The position numbers and the translations under genes were made by a program. Below the pieces are notes generated by a model that had not been told where the DNA came from, ran no database searches, and was given only the letters and a program-made list of their open reading frames with translations. Positions 28 to 51,801 of a DNA stretch of 51,872 bases are shown piece after piece. Position 1 is the stretch's first letter, and the number at the start of each line of letters is the position of its first letter. Location of the stretch: positions 1-51,872 of the IMG/VR virus record IMGVR_UViG_3300028653_000409; one strand, 5' to 3'. The stretch is from a virus.

Positions 28-393
28 TCAGATACCCCCCCCTGTCTCGTGGTATCGAGCAGCGCGCCTGGCGGCGGTGACGCGGGAGTGTGAGGAACCG
101 CATCGACCCATGATGTTAGACTTGACCAAGGCAAGATGGGGGGCGTCTCGCCGTTCCTTCAAATGGTCGAAGAAGATGCGGGTCAACCTAGTATGGAACG
201 CTCGGCAGTCCGGATCCTCACAGCAGTGGCCTTTGGTGGCCAGTAGGTACGGCCAACGCTCAGCCTTGATCTCTTCGCAGAGCGCTCGCCATCCGGGCGA
301 TGTGTAGAAGCTTTCAACCTTCTTGTCGGGAACCTTGACCTTGATAGCCGACGACGGCTTGAGCTTCTGTCCAATTGTCCGAAGCTTGCGCAT
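28..393 (-). CDS. HNH endonuclease beside cos/terminase
   Basis: Small 121-aa HNH nuclease. Residues C58 and C63, the FFDH motif ending at H77, N93, and C98/H102 match the beta-beta-alpha-metal fold. The last metal pair reads C-G-S-S-H, where C-x2-C-H is more usual, so one cysteine is missing. Family knowledge: in HK97-like phages an HNH protein encoded next to cos assists terminase cleavage. It is the first gene after two terminators (413-556) and reads toward position 1, so on a circular map terS follows. The start at 393 has only a weak AGGG ribosome site. Functional assignment is good; direct partnership with the terminase is inferred. Confidence 0.85.
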   Translation of the reverse strand: MRKLRTIGQKLKPSSAIKVKVPDKKVESFYTSPGWRALCEEIKAERWPYLLATKGHCCEDPDCRAFHTRLTRIFFDHLKERRDAPHLALVKSNIMGRCGSSHSRVTAARRAARYHETGGGI

Positions 394-519
394 CTACCCT
401 ATGAACGAAAGAAGGCGGCGCCGTTGCCAGCGCCGCCTAAGTGTCAGTTGTTGGAAGACGTCAAGACGACGACACGCCGGGGTTGAGAGGAGGGAGAATG
501 ACGAGCCGTCTACCCTATG
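393..519 (-). repeat. direct repeat of an 11-bp motif downstream of two terminators
   Basis: The 11-mer TCTACCCTATG (plus strand) occurs exactly at 393-403 and 509-519. Each copy sits just after a hairpin and its T-rich tail when read on the minus strand. A shorter match (TACCCTAT) lies at 9952-9959, upstream of the early genes. The role is unknown; candidates are a loading site for the NusG-like protein or part of a promoter. Confidence 0.45.
413..438 (-). terminator. rho-independent terminator ahead of the HNH/late genes
   Basis: On the minus strand an 8-bp stem (AGGCGGCG/CGCCGCCT, 10-nt loop) is followed by TCTTTCGTTC. It lies between the NusG-like gene and the HNH gene, where readthrough would be needed for polymerase to enter the late genes. 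The tail runs into CATAGGGTAGA, an 11-bp motif repeated at 509-519. Confidence 0.6.
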
Positions 520-532
520 TCATTGAAAACGA

Positions 533-556
533 AAGCCCGGCACGATGGCCGGGCTT
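533..556 (-). terminator. rho-independent terminator after the NusG-like gene
   Basis: A 9-bp stem (AAGCCCGGC/GCCGGGCTT, 6-nt loop) is followed on the minus strand by TCGTTTTC. It ends the early minus-strand operon 36 bases after the NusG-like stop codon. The hairpin and the following CAATGAC closely match the terminator at 22409-22442, so this looks like a dispersed terminator cassette. Confidence 0.75.
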
Positions 557-591
557 GTCATTGCAGCAGCACTTCCACCGACTCGGTCGGC

Positions 592-1302
592 TCATCCGGC
601 CATCTGGGAGACTGGGCTTGACGCCGCGCTCGACCTGAGGCCCAACGCCGCATGCAATAGACTGATTCGGTCCTCGGTGGGAAGATCTTCGATTCCACGC
701 CAGTATGACTTTGTGGAAATCGTCATATCGATCGGTTCTATATCTAGTTGTTTTGCAAAGAAATTAGGTGTCTTTTTTCCCTTCTTTTTCCACTTCTTTC
801 GCTTCGAGCGCTTCGGAGCTGGCTTACGCGCCCGCTCATCAGCATTGACCACTTCCTGGACGGCTGCCCTGACTTCCTCGTCGTTCTGCGCCTCGACTGC
901 CTCGATTTTACAGATGTCACTGTCGGCAACGACGATCAGTATGCCGGCCTCGTTATGCAGAAGACGTTTGACGCCGGGCACAGCCAAGATGCGGCGCTGC
1001 TGGTAATCGAGGCCCCATCCGAACACGAACACATATCCTGGGAACATCTTCTGAGCATATGGCCGCCGGTAACCACGCGAGACAACCGTGCGTTTGATGA
1101 TCGGCAGATAAACCCCGAATTGTCGTTCTGCCAAATGATCGACAACCTTGTTTTCCTGGTTCGGCGCCGTCACCACGACGTGCCACTTTCCGATGCAGTC
1201 GGGAAGCAAATCGGCGTCGCGCTTCCCAAGCTTCGCCTCGATATCGGCCTGGATTTCCAACGCACGACGCTCGATCTCTCTGCGAAGCTCGGTCGACAAC
1301 AT
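592..1302 (-). CDS. NusG-family (NGN-domain) transcription factor, candidate late antiterminator
   Basis: A 236-aa protein with a NusG N-terminal domain at residues 38-140: it opens KWHVVVTAPNQE and carries the hallmark strings FPGYVFVF (87-94) and VPGVKRLL (108-115). NusG/RfaH proteins bind the RNA polymerase clamp and change termination. The usual KOW domain motif is not visible. Instead there is a lysine/arginine-rich linker (about 159-178) and a short C-terminal segment. It is the last gene of the early minus operon, directly before two terminators and the HNH/terminase genes, the position lambda Q holds. A role in late antitermination is inferred from that placement. Confidence 0.8.
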   Translation of the reverse strand: MLSTELRREIERRALEIQADIEAKLGKRDADLLPDCIGKWHVVVTAPNQENKVVDHLAERQFGVYLPIIKRTVVSRGYRRPYAQKMFPGYVFVFGWGLDYQQRRILAVPGVKRLLHNEAGILIVVADSDICKIEAVEAQNDEEVRAAVQEVVNADERARKPAPKRSKRKKWKKKGKKTPNFFAKQLDIEPIDMTISTKSYWRGIEDLPTEDRISLLHAALGLRSSAASSPVSQMAG

Positions 1303-1347: not shown

Positions 1348-2484
1348 TCACTCGGCTGCCTGCTGATCGGGTGGGCCTGTGGTGTCGGCGCGTTCGGTCT
1401 TCGGTGGCGGAAAGCCGGTCTCAGTCCTTGGGACGCTCAACGTCCGCCGCGGCTTGCCTTCAACAACGATGCTCCGAGTGCCAATATTAGAGTTCGGTAC
1501 TTCCTGTAATCGGCGAAGCCAAGCCGGGAAACGCCCGTCACCCGCGCCCTCGACGACCAGATCCCAATTTCGGACGTCGGGGTCGAGACCGTAGCCAACT
1601 GGCGGCAGCGCCGCCGGCATAGACGCAATCCGTTTTCCATTTTCGATCCGAATGCGAAATCGCGGAATTCCGCCATGGCCACAGATCCGATGAAATACAT
1701 CCCAAGCGGCCCAGTCGCCGGTGTCATCTTCGACATCAAAGCGTTGTGCAGAGGCCGGTGTAGGTGCCACTTCCGGCTTTTTGAGCAGCGTCCAGCGCCT
1801 CTGCGCGATGTAGTTCCAAAGGGCTGGAACTGTCCCACGTTTCAGGCGTCGCAACTCTTCAAGGAAAGCCGGAGCGCCATCGACGGCTGGCTGAAACTGA
1901 TCGTCGGGAAGTGCATTCCATTCACGGTCGATCCGATCCTGATCGTCCAATGCCGACGTTGGCCATAGCGCTTTGAGCTTTGCGAGAAGCGTGCTTCGTC
2001 GATCGCGCGCGCGCATCTCTCTCTCTGAACCTTCTTGAGGGGAAGGTTCATGGTGCCCATGCATACGTGGGCACGGGGGTGCCCGTTCTGGCTGGGCACC
2101 AGGGTGCCCATCAGCGGGCACCTGTTCCACCTCTTCATCGTCCTCTTCGTCGGCCTTTGAGAGGTCAATAATGGCATCATTGTCGAGACATACGCGATAC
2201 GCATAGATCGACGACGGCTGTTTTGTTGCATCGGGCTCGACGCCGTCACGGCCAAGCAGCCGCTTTTCTAACCATCCCGCGTCGACAAGCCGCTCGATCG
2301 AGCGCTGTACCGTTGCCCGCCCGCAGCGCAGTTCGCGCGCCATGCGCACCTGCGAGCGCCGGCACCAGCCGTTCTGCTTCGTGTGCCGGCCAAGGAGACA
2401 CAGCACCTGCAGATCACGCGGCTCCAAGAGCTGATCGATTATCGCGCCCGCCGGAATGATCGAATATCTGTAGTCGGCTGTCAT
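1348..2484 (-). CDS. winged-helix DNA-binding protein, probable replication initiator
   Basis: A 378-aa protein. Residues about 15-75 form a winged helix-turn-helix: LCLLGRH, a recognition region RRSQVRMARELRCGRATVQR, then LVDAGWLEK. A charged linker of about 65 residues (acidic, then His/Pro-rich) follows, and then a C-terminal domain rich in Trp and Leu. This plan (HTH, acidic linker, second domain) is common in phage replication proteins of the lambda O/DnaD type. It overlaps the upstream HNH gene by 4 bases. Replication is inferred from architecture and from lack of another candidate; a transcription factor is possible. Confidence 0.55.
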   Translation of the reverse strand: MTADYRYSIIPAGAIIDQLLEPRDLQVLCLLGRHTKQNGWCRRSQVRMARELRCGRATVQRSIERLVDAGWLEKRLLGRDGVEPDATKQPSSIYAYRVCLDNDAIIDLSKADEEDDEEVEQVPADGHPGAQPERAPPCPRMHGHHEPSPQEGSEREMRARDRRSTLLAKLKALWPTSALDDQDRIDREWNALPDDQFQPAVDGAPAFLEELRRLKRGTVPALWNYIAQRRWTLLKKPEVAPTPASAQRFDVEDDTGDWAAWDVFHRICGHGGIPRFRIRIENGKRIASMPAALPPVGYGLDPDVRNWDLVVEGAGDGRFPAWLRRLQEVPNSNIGTRSIVVEGKPRRTLSVPRTETGFPPPKTERADTTGPPDQQAAE

Positions 2485-6372: not shown

Positions 6373-7340
6373 GTCCGCACCTCGGGAAATTCTCGATGCG
6401 TCTCGCCGTCAAGTTCGGCGCCTGCCGCTTTCTTTCCGACACGAACCATGTTGACGGGGAACTGCTTCGGCTCCGATGCGTGCAGAATTATTTCGTTTTT
6501 GCTCTGTTGAACCTTCAAGAGTTGCGTGGATCCGCCGGCTGCATCAGGAGGCGTCAAGTAATAGCGCGGCTCCCAAGCACCCCACTGCTTAAAGAACAAC
6601 GGAACCTTGGCCAACTCACATTGGTCGCGAAGATCGCGCACCCATTGGGGATGCATGGGGCGGGCGCGCGGGCCGGATTCGCCGCCGCAGATCACCCAAT
6701 CGATCTTGAGTCGAGCACCAACGATGCCGTTGCCTTCAGGGTATTTCATCCAATCCACATCCGAACAGTCGATGTCGATTGGCCCCAGAAGTGGCTCGCA
6801 TGATACGAACCGCACGGCTGCGGGCGTCATTAATAGATCGGGAATACGCTCGTCAGCGCGTTTCTGGTCTTCGATTGAGACGCCGAACCAGACGTTCGGA
6901 AGAGGCCATGGAATATCGGGATCAGCGCGCGTAACCCATGCACGCATTCGCTCGGCGCGTTTCGTGAGCACCTGGAAAGTATGGTGCTTGGCGTAGCGCA
7001 TGACTTCGAAGACGCGCTCGATCCACTCGTCGGGAATAGATTCGTGGAACAGATCTCCCATCGAATTGACGAAGATGCGCCGCGGCTGCTTCCACGACAG
7101 TGGTTTAAGAAACAGCTTATCCGGCGCCAACGCGACCTTGCCGGTCCATACAGCACCAACTTTCGAGTCCTGTGTCGTGCCGATGTAATGTGATAGCGCG
7201 GAATTCTTGCGGCTGATGATCTCAAGCCTTCGCGCCATCTTCATCGCATAGCAATTTGTGCAGCCGGGCGAGACGACCGAGCACCCGACGATCGGATTCC
7301 ACGTCGCATCCGTCCATTCGATGCCGGTCTTGTCGCTCAT
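6369..7340 (-). CDS. phage Gp37/Gp68 (DUF5131) family protein
   Basis: A 323-aa protein opening TGIEWTDATWNPIVGCS. Cysteines C20, C27 and C30 (C-x6-C-x2-C in SPGCTNCYA) recall an iron-sulfur or radical-SAM-like cluster. Further conserved-looking blocks are NSMGDLFHESIPDEW, VFEVMRYAKHHTFQVLTKRAERM, and WVICGGESGPRARPM with its GGESGPxARP string. This family is frequent in phages and its biochemistry is not settled. The neighbouring adenine methylases suggest a nucleic-acid modification role, but this is inference. Confidence 0.8.
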   Translation of the reverse strand: MSDKTGIEWTDATWNPIVGCSVVSPGCTNCYAMKMARRLEIISRKNSALSHYIGTTQDSKVGAVWTGKVALAPDKLFLKPLSWKQPRRIFVNSMGDLFHESIPDEWIERVFEVMRYAKHHTFQVLTKRAERMRAWVTRADPDIPWPLPNVWFGVSIEDQKRADERIPDLLMTPAAVRFVSCEPLLGPIDIDCSDVDWMKYPEGNGIVGARLKIDWVICGGESGPRARPMHPQWVRDLRDQCELAKVPLFFKQWGAWEPRYYLTPPDAAGGSTQLLKVQQSKNEIILHASEPKQFPVNMVRVGKKAAGAELDGETHREFPEVRT

Positions 7341-49378: not shown

Positions 49379-51157
49379 TCAGGCGATCATCGCCGCGGCT
49401 TCGGCGCGAGGTTGTGCTTGCGGATTGAGGCTCATCAGGTGCCCCGCGTTGAACCCCGCCATCAGCGGATCGACCTTGCCGAATCCGGCCTCGTCCCGCC
49501 CTACCCGCATCGCAGTCGGCGTCGGCACGATGATCAAGTTTCCGGCACACCAGCCGAGTAGAGGCTGATCACCATGGCAAAAACTCCCGTCGGCGAGCTT
49601 GCGCTCGATCGTTTTGATCGCACCCATCAGCGCAATGCCCTGTCTGACGGCGTCGAGAGTTTCGGCATCCTGCGACACGCCAATGTCGTCGAGCGCATCA
49701 ACTATTGCTCCGATTCCGGCTGCATCGACTCCGACCTGGGCGAGCAATCCAAAATCGCGGATGCGCACGACCAGGTCACGTACATACTGGATATCCGGCG
49801 GCAACCTATTCGGATCCGGATCGGATGGAGGCACGTCCGCCAGCAGATCAGCCATTACCGGGTCATCATCGATCACGACCTCTTCGGCATGTCCGAAACG
49901 GAATACGGTCAAGTCTCCAGCCTTCTTGAACCTGAGATAATCCTCGGAGTTGGCCTTGCGGCGCCAGGCGCCGACTGTCGATATCAGACCGTGAGCCCAG
50001 CACAGCCACCGGTTCGTTCCACATTCACGACCGATCACGGCGATGCCGAGCAAGTCGTCGAGCCCGCCGCCGTCGACACCAACCGTGACCACTTCACAAA
50101 CGGCAAGAATATGATCGAGCCATTCCGCCGATGTCATACCCTGCCGAGCGCCGCGGCTCCAAACCAGCGCACCCGCCCAACCATCAGACCGCAGCGAATT
50201 CCCGATCTGCACATTGAGGTGCTTGGCGAGAAATCCGACCACCTGGGCACGACCAGCCCGTTCGGCTTCGGCCAACTTGTCGGCGATATAGAGTTCGTCG
50301 ACCGATGCACCAAGATTCGGATTCGTGATCGGCCAGAACTCGCGTTTGCGAAATTGCTCATCCTTGAGCAGCGACTTCGGAAACTCATATAGGACCGGCA
50401 ACCGGTTCGGCTCGATGATCCTGCCATCTCGGATCTCGCGAAACTCTTCTAGCTTTTGCTTGAACACCCCTGCCGGCGGCGCATCCGACTGCGTCGAGAG
50501 ATAGATCACAAATCCTTCCGGTCGAGAGGCGAGCCCGCCTTGCGCCTCGAGCAAAAGATTGTCGGCCTGCGCGCGCTTGCCGAACAGCCAGAGTTCATCG
50601 ACCAGCAGACCGATCGTCTTCTTGCCCGACACTGTTTCGCTGTCGGCGGCGATCACCTTAAGAAAGGCGCCGGTGTTGCGATGCTCGATGACGCGGCCGG
50701 CGCTGGGCTTGAGGATCGCCCGCAAATCCGGATCGGCCATGACCATGTCGCGCGCCGGATTATACGAATTGTCCGCGATCTCCTTGGTCGGCGCTAGAAT
50801 GTAAAACTCGCCGGACTCCCGCCAGTTACGGATTAAGGCCGTGACCATGATCCCGGCGGCGAGCGTCGACTTCGAATTTTTCTTGCTGATCAGCAAAAAG
50901 AAATACTGGATCAGCCGGCGGCCGGTCTCCGGATCATAGGCACCGAAGATCGACGCAACGAAGTCGATGATCCATGGCCGAGCTGCTTCGCCGAAGGTCG
51001 GCCGATGCGCGGCATCGACGATCCGCAGCGACTTGAAGATTTCGAGCGCGGCCTCGGCCTCGGCCGGAAATAGCGGATCGAACGGAATCAACGAACGCTG
51101 TGGCGTCGCCAAAATCCGTTCCTGCCAATCCGGACATGCGGTCGACCATTGCTTCAC
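49379..51157 (-). CDS. terL: terminase large subunit
   Basis: A 592-aa HK97-type terminase ATPase/nuclease. The Walker A-like motif is LISKKNSKSTLAAG (S91-T98), Walker B is GLLVDELW (D187, E188), and the nuclease acids include D362 in VGVDGGGLDDL and a later VGVDAAGIG. It cuts and packages DNA at cos. It overlaps terS by four bases and lies 19 bases upstream of the capsid fusion. Confidence 0.95.
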   Translation of the reverse strand: MKQWSTACPDWQERILATPQRSLIPFDPLFPAEAEAALEIFKSLRIVDAAHRPTFGEAARPWIIDFVASIFGAYDPETGRRLIQYFFLLISKKNSKSTLAAGIMVTALIRNWRESGEFYILAPTKEIADNSYNPARDMVMADPDLRAILKPSAGRVIEHRNTGAFLKVIAADSETVSGKKTIGLLVDELWLFGKRAQADNLLLEAQGGLASRPEGFVIYLSTQSDAPPAGVFKQKLEEFREIRDGRIIEPNRLPVLYEFPKSLLKDEQFRKREFWPITNPNLGASVDELYIADKLAEAERAGRAQVVGFLAKHLNVQIGNSLRSDGWAGALVWSRGARQGMTSAEWLDHILAVCEVVTVGVDGGGLDDLLGIAVIGRECGTNRWLCWAHGLISTVGAWRRKANSEDYLRFKKAGDLTVFRFGHAEEVVIDDDPVMADLLADVPPSDPDPNRLPPDIQYVRDLVVRIRDFGLLAQVGVDAAGIGAIVDALDDIGVSQDAETLDAVRQGIALMGAIKTIERKLADGSFCHGDQPLLGWCAGNLIIVPTPTAMRVGRDEAGFGKVDPLMAGFNAGHLMSLNPQAQPRAEAAAMIA

Positions 51158-51801
51158 TGTACCGTCTCAGGTCCGCGAGATCGCGGCGGCGCCGGCGTGG
51201 CGTATTTGCCGGTCGCGGCGGCCTCGGCCGCGCGCGCCGCCTCTTCCTTTTTTCCGAGCGGACGGTCGCGTTGTTCATCGGGCATGCGCGCCTTGCCAAC
51301 CGTTCCACATCCGCGCTCGAGCAAAGCCTTGGAAGCCGCCGCGCGTGCCGTCTCGCTCCGACCGTCCTGGGCGATCTTGCGCAGAACGGCGAGCGCCACG
51401 GTGCAATATTTGCGCGCCTGGTCGCGAACCTCGCCGATTTTAGATGGCGCGATGGCCGGAGCCATCATGAACGGCAGCAACGCCGCGTCGCCGCCGATCT
51501 CGACTGCCGGCTTGCCATAACCGCGGTCCAGAATTTCCTTGGCTGCCGTGATCTTCGCCGACTCGCTTGCCCCATAAACTAGAAGCCGACCCAACGTCTC
51601 GATCGCAAGGTCGGCATGCCGCTGGGCAAGTCCGTCGATCTCATCCGGCGCCGGCTCGGCGAGCAGCGCCTTCAACTCAAGCTCGGACAGCGACGTCGGC
51701 TCCGATAGGCCCTTCTTTTTCCGACCAGCGCCTGGCCGGGCCCCGCCGCGACGGGTTCCATCCTTGGCCTTGGCTTGGGTTTCGTCTGCTGCAGCGGTCA
51801 T
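51154..51801 (-). CDS. terS: terminase small subunit
   Basis: A 215-aa product. The N-terminus is basic (RRGGARPGAGRKKKGLSEPT), the middle helical (LAQRHADLAIETLGRLLVYG, TAAKEILDRGYGKPAVEIGG) and the C-terminus low complexity. AAAGGA lies eight bases before the ATG. It recognises cos and recruits terL. The first gene of the late minus-strand series, directly after the candidate cos region. Confidence 0.85.
   Translation of the reverse strand: MTAAADETQAKAKDGTRRGGARPGAGRKKKGLSEPTSLSELELKALLAEPAPDEIDGLAQRHADLAIETLGRLLVYGASESAKITAAKEILDRGYGKPAVEIGGDAALLPFMMAPAIAPSKIGEVRDQARKYCTVALAVLRKIAQDGRSETARAAASKALLERGCGTVGKARMPDEQRDRPLGKKEEAARAAEAAATGKYATPAPPRSRGPETVQ

Follow-up and report, generated by a model that had tools for sequence, protein, structure and literature searches.

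The last early gene of the viral DNA that we analysed, a stretch of 51,872 nt referred to here as the window, encodes a paralogue of the elongation factor NusG, and we propose that this protein is probably a phage late antiterminator, steered by an RNA element past the late terminator or terminators. Judged from sequence conservation among its relatives, the NusG paralogue, a structured RNA, and an intrinsic terminator constitute a conserved three-part module. The features of the window are listed in table 1. Pfam, PHROGs, a terminator scan, and the end junction of relatives together reproduced the order described in the initial annotation: the NusG gene is followed by two strong intrinsic terminators, the HNH gene, the contig ends, and terS and terL, so that the window ends (positions 1 and 51872) fall between HNH and TerS. 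In the related loci L271, L273, and L274, ~10 additional bases (CGCACATCCC-like) were observed exactly at the junction of the two ends. Because relatives carry these extra bases, the contig ends look like a cos site, which fits a whole genome cut at cos with a single-stranded overhang of ~10 nt. Broad DNA similarity to other phages was found only at window positions 6565-7340, a Gp37/Gp68, DUF5131-like stretch common to mycobacteriophages and Gordonia phages.

Table 1. Features of the window around the early/late boundary
Feature	Position	Strand	Evidence or remark
Helix-turn-helix replication initiator-like gene, last before nusG	1348..2484	-	Pfam HTH_36; PHROGs replication initiation protein
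NusG-paralogue gene, 236 aa, putative late antiterminator	592..1302	-	PF02357, phrog_6386; tree apart from host NusG
NGN domain (NusG N-terminal, RNAP-binding), residues 39-132	907..1188	-	Pfam; confident AF2 model; Foldseek to RfaH/NusG
Strongly basic linker, residues ~157-178, replaces KOW	769..834	-	Sequence; low pLDDT; similar tails in L271, L276, L282
C-terminal helix, residues 209-219, motif LxxALGL	646..678	-	AF2 helix; motif common to L271 and L282
Divergent copy of conserved RNA (likely): hairpin, then GTGC-TGCT-GCAATG	558..616	-	Best R1 match in whole window; motif test
Intrinsic terminator T1	533..556	-	Strict scan, dG <= -12
11-bp motif copy 1, post-terminator element	509..519	-	Exact repeat; related elements after terminators in L271, L273, L274, L276, L277, L282, L009
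Intrinsic terminator T2	413..438	-	Strict scan, dG <= -12
11-bp motif copy 2, last base = A of HNH start codon	393..403	-	Exact repeat; family element AGGGTATG
HNH endonuclease, first late gene	28..393	-	PHROGs 589/144
Terminase small subunit, terS	51154..51801	-	PHROGs 2538/641
Terminase large subunit, terL	49379..51157	-	Pfam TerL_ATPase; phrog_9

The description of the protein as a NusG N-terminal domain with a strongly basic linker and no visible KOW domain was borne out. The Pfam NusG family matched with 50.2 bits (E = 3.7e-13; cut-off 22.2 bits), the PHROGs match was to a 'transcription antiterminator' family, and no Pfam match to a KOW domain was obtained; after residue 158, the protein carries the basic stretch KPAPKRSKRKKWKKKGKK. 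AlphaFold2 predicted a confident NGN domain (~37-158), a disordered linker, and the C-terminal helix. The structural comparison that the initial annotation had suggested was made with Foldseek, in which this model matched RfaH (including RNAP-bound RfaH), NusG, and a NusG-RNA complex. A single-protein search with the window protein gave no matches in IMG/VR or INPHARED, and relatives were reached only via TerL, TerS, and the replication initiator. When phrog_6386 was searched over 298 genomes, mostly host NusG was recovered, and an E-value cut on a phage-only profile (A3) told the two apart. In the NGN-domain tree, which was built without LoaP rows, host NusG lay on one side of a 99/99 branch and every phage row on the other; by this separation, the window protein appears distinct from the housekeeping NusG. 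It grouped with the proteins of L271, L282, and L276, which likewise have a basic tail instead of KOW, and with the long-branch protein of L288, in which a KOW-like end is retained. A KOW-like C-terminus is kept in most Rhizobiaceae relatives.

The two rho-independent terminators reported after the NusG gene were recovered by our strict scan, in which the minus strand of the whole window had just four sites, T1 and T2 (-16.1 and -18.7 kcal/mol) among them; dinucleotide shuffles of the window gave 0-5 sites on both strands together. The 11-bp motif CATAGGGTAGA occurred exactly twice in the window, once after each terminator, as had been observed. Its suggested role as a loading or ops-like site was rejected, since the motif sits past the terminator that RNAP must pass and merges with the first late start codon in relatives; with ops (GGCGGTAGnnTG) it has only GGTAG in common. 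The motif corresponds to a family element, AGGGTATG, which from its distribution we regard as a post-terminator/start-codon element. With two or fewer mismatches, this element was present at the late start in 46 of 67 loci versus ~4% of control windows, and the first late ATG lay 16-17 nt past the first tail base of the terminator in 45 of the 67. In the window clade, the element also follows terminators where no gene starts (window T1, L273, L274, L282, and L009), and it may therefore be more than a ribosome-binding site. When a gene other than HNH opens the late operon, as in L010/L015-type loci, the AGGGTATG-like element can give rise to a very short ORF; in L010, this ORF overlaps the start of the next gene, as if translation were coupled. 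The SD-like sequence of such elements is unusually near the ATG. A separate stretch, GCCCTCCTTGGGCGTTTCCTCCC, with CCTCC repeats resembling an anti-Shine-Dalgarno sequence, is shared by L271, L273, L274, and L009 between terminators 1 and 2, where the window has only CT-rich sequence.

We then considered the gene order in Rhizobiaceae phages and prophages, where the phage-only NusG profile detected 28 copies in 24 of 299 genomes. Wherever a locus was long enough, the order was almost always replication initiator, NusG, a gap of ~200 bp, HNH or a minor protein as the first late gene, TerS, TerL, and portal, and replication-initiator homologues directly preceded nusG in almost all related loci. 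The same order was observed with both HK97-like and lambda-like (GpA-type) terminase modules, which are unrelated to each other, and was retained by most members of the window's own clade; these module names are our interpretation of the record annotations. As the NusG slot is kept while the late module is exchanged, the gene order argues that the job of NusG is tied to the early/late boundary and not to one late gene set. The records of phi2LM21 and phi3LM21 are already annotated 'transcription antitermination protein NusG', and that of vB_RleM_PPF1 is NusG-annotated as well. The three features of the lambda Q-type arrangement, namely the last early gene, a terminator, and then the late operon, were found in the window, in its relatives, and in viral contigs, and the gene order thus supported a placement of the NusG paralogue in the λ-Q position, before the terminator guarding the late operon. 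The Q-like antitermination by a NusG paralogue that had been proposed for the window therefore stands in part: the place of the gene, the terminator before the late operon, and their conservation over unrelated late modules agree with it, and the 11-bp motif as its loading site was abandoned.

The ~200-bp gap between NusG and the late genes of these relatives contained a structured RNA, then an intrinsic terminator, and then the late start codon ~16 nt further on. The RNA core reads CCCTGA-[hairpin]-CGAYTCAGGG-CAGTGC-GNRA or UACU/UACA-GCTATG and lies ~12 nt upstream of the terminator. Few pairs were obtained when RNAalifold was applied to the entire gap, and the core alignment A6 (31 sequences, 16 pairs) was needed; in A6, 88% of cells were paired, and 31 double-changed cells were counted versus 10.2 expected from shuffles, with none of 500 shuffles as high and 4-12 double-changed cells in slid controls. 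Single-sequence folding energies were not clearly below those of shuffles, and the support for the structure is thus covariation rather than stability. No match above gathering score was found in Rfam 15 for eight loci, and the window region gave only sub-threshold, chance-level Rfam matches. A covariance model of the RNA (R1) matched in 29 of 299 Rhizobiaceae genomes, and all nine held-out matches, outside the training set, were flanked directly by a NusG paralogue on one side and by late genes on the other. Because none of 384 other alphaproteobacterial genomes matched, R1 appears specific and the element lineage-limited. Moreover, the pattern CCAGTGCGNAAGCTATGA, derived from the RNA, was found in 42 viral contigs of IMG/VR, and in all 38 with >300 nt upstream, a NusG stop codon preceded it by 136-165 nt; a looser 17-mer, AAGTGCTRCTGCWATGA, gave mostly chance matches (NusG adjacent in 11/51). 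The core was absent from the NusG loci L121, L122, L128, and L134, which may use another signal.

Of 86 deduplicated loci, 70 had an intrinsic terminator within 110 nt after the RNA; the same test was positive in 6 of 811 random windows on that strand and, on the opposite strand, in 2 of the 86 loci. For this count, a cut of dG <= -9 on bare stem energy was replaced as too strict. About half of the 16 failing loci had weak or displaced terminators, and none was visible in the remainder. At least four unrelated stem families were found after the RNA (GGCGGCC.., GAGCCCGG.., GCGGATCG.., and GAGCGCC..), so it is apparently the termination function that is preserved rather than one sequence. Two further observations concern the gap. 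On the 5' side of the core, conservation extends over another ~90 nt that directly follow the nusG stop codon (CGGAYGAnCnG.. / GGTCGGTA..CCGGTC; for instance, L110:4655-4750), and one Rhizobiaceae prophage carries a tRNA-Met gene (L124:5758-5834, minus strand) that separates the RNA element from the late terminator.

For the window's own clade, loci were collected via related TerS. A NusG-like gene was present upstream of HNH/TerS in L271, L273-L277, L282-L283, L288, L293, and L294, and no such gene could be recognised in L284 or L287. Two terminators recur in several of these loci. With filters off, the best R1 match in the window was the element listed in table 1, which includes the nusG stop codon and reaches almost to T1. 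The match was weak (14.3 bits, E = 0.056; next best 12.0 bits); limited to the 200-nt slot on one strand, the E-value would be ~1e-4, model E-values being rough. R1 gave no significant match in the nine window-clade relatives searched. Of 11 clade loci, 5, the window among them, have a short core, GTGC-N3-5-GCWAT[GC], ahead of T1 or of the late start, where the background rate is 0.0026 per 180 nt; the significance of this result is overstated because the pattern was relaxed after inspection of the clade sequences. Given a weak R1 match that nevertheless falls in the right slot, and a core pattern relaxed post hoc, the RNA element in the window is likely but not proven.

Taken together, these results point to processive antitermination of the LoaP type, guided by RNA and taking the role of Q, as the most likely mechanism. 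The strict linkage of RNA and nusG, the covariation, and the frequency of terminators after the RNA speak for this mechanism, and a structured RNA is the likelier recognition signal before the terminator. In the proposed sequence of events, the NusG paralogue would be made from the early operon and its NGN domain would bind the host elongation complex; the freshly transcribed RNA (hairpin plus GTGC-N3-5-GCWATG) just before the late terminator would direct it to the right transcript, and the modified polymerase would pass the terminator(s), so that transcription would extend into HNH, terS, terL, and the remaining late genes. The late transcript could begin from the early promoter, or from another that lies upstream of the RNA and escaped our scans. 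RNA recruitment, readthrough, and timing are what we infer from sequence. In the window clade, the basic tail in place of KOW may take over RNA binding. More generally, we lean towards a class of phage late switch in which NusG paralogues read a dedicated, uncatalogued RNA, which would have evolved independently of lambda Q and be common in Rhizobiaceae phages, and of which the window sub-lineage would have lost KOW and use a basic tail with a reduced RNA.

That the RNA covaries and directly precedes the terminator could also be read as an RNA acting alone (put-/EAR-like or an attenuator) in cis on RNAP or on the terminator, with NusG as a general elongation helper; put and EAR RNAs do act in cis. 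This reading is unlikely in view of the total RNA-nusG linkage in the held-out and viral sets and of the window clade, which retains NusG while the RNA has mostly diverged. Conversely, the protein alone might account for the arrangement: a KOW-less paralogue that competes with host NusG but cannot recruit Rho would relieve Rho-dependent silencing generally, without sequence specificity, and the terminators would be ordinary ends of the early operon. NGN contacts suffice for elongation effects and KOW binds Rho and the ribosome (PMC7819879), which is compatible with such a competitor, as is the absence of KOW in the window, L271, L276, and L282. However, most relatives keep a KOW-like C-terminus, and competition leaves both the conserved RNA with its terminator and the fixed place by the late operon unexplained; we consider it highly unlikely.

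The least probable reading, in our view, is an ordinary arrangement in which the early operon ends at the terminators, the late genes are served by a promoter of their own, perhaps with an activator from the phage, and NusG has an unrelated role. Bidirectional-type terminators are common at operon ends, and T1 scored on the plus strand too, as this reading would have it. However, the late ATG follows the terminator by ~16 nt in most loci and the T2 stem by just 20 bp in the window, so a promoter apparently cannot fit between the terminator and the first late gene. Nor were sigma-70-like sites in excess, with 27 in 40 conserved regions versus 29-36 in shuffles, although alphaproteobacterial promoters may differ; the gap of the window contained none. 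Thus, we retained RNA-guided antitermination by the NusG paralogue as the preferred reading.

In phiLM21-like Sinorhizobium prophages, a transcription antiterminator next to HNH has already been annotated (PMC12429752), in the same place before HNH as the window NusG; the descriptions searched mentioned no RNA element, late terminator, or mechanism, and papers on LM21 prophages and on alphaproteobacterial phage architecture did not mention NusG. No description of the RNA element was found in a literature search that left most subscription journals and all preprints outside its range. Early-to-late switching in phages outside the lambdoid group is mostly unknown. If our proposal is true, phages have turned the universal elongation factor NusG into a late antiterminator under the guidance of a dedicated RNA, and the system would be present in roughly one Rhizobiaceae genome in ten by protein or by RNA counts. 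The element would add an RNA family absent from Rfam, and the compact system (protein, ~160-nt RNA, and terminator) could be rebuilt in vitro, so that a phage would offer a way to test how NusG paralogues locate their operons. In the KOW-less branch, RNAP modification would be separated from Rho and ribosome contacts.

Among known systems, lambda Q, Q21, and 82 Q resemble the window in place and presumed job (last early gene, terminator, and late genes); however, the fold of Q is unrelated to that of NusG. For loading, Q uses DNA at the pR' promoter together with a pause, whereas no promoter-proximal site was found here and the conserved signal looks like RNA. LoaP is a NusG paralogue of Bacillus and others, known from the difficidin and macrolactin operons. 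With the dfn hairpin and a terminator, LoaP switches on a long operon by readthrough; the hairpin in the leader cannot be dispensed with, and LoaP by itself is enough to suppress a NusA-dependent terminator (PMC12691694). The likeness lies in a NusG paralogue, a leader RNA, and an intrinsic terminator just downstream, represented in relatives by the covarying RNA and in the window by the weak RNA match and two terminators. The present system differs in belonging to phages, at the early/late boundary, with a putative function, and in a window protein without KOW. In addition, the phage RNA is larger, with a capped P3, whereas LoaP uses a UNCG hairpin; the P3 loop is UGCU in the window and GNRA or UACU/UACA in Rhizobiaceae phages, in neither case of the UNCG type of dfn. 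RfaH and plasmid RfaH-like proteins share an NGN domain that binds RNAP, an elongation-complex contact established for NusG/RfaH (PMC7819879), as well as antitermination of one or a few operons, and rfaH-like genes on prophages were noted in a study of RfaH evolution (PMC7593976); RfaH, however, depends on the ops DNA element for its recruitment and its KOW is of the switching kind, and the window has no ops match and its protein no KOW. GafZ of the Caulobacter gene transfer agent also places an alphaproteobacterial phage-like cluster under antitermination control, but it is a sigma-like HTH protein rather than a NusG paralogue, and its binding element lies in the promoter (PMC11150451). By these comparisons, LoaP would be the closest experimentally supported mechanism and lambda Q the closest system by role.
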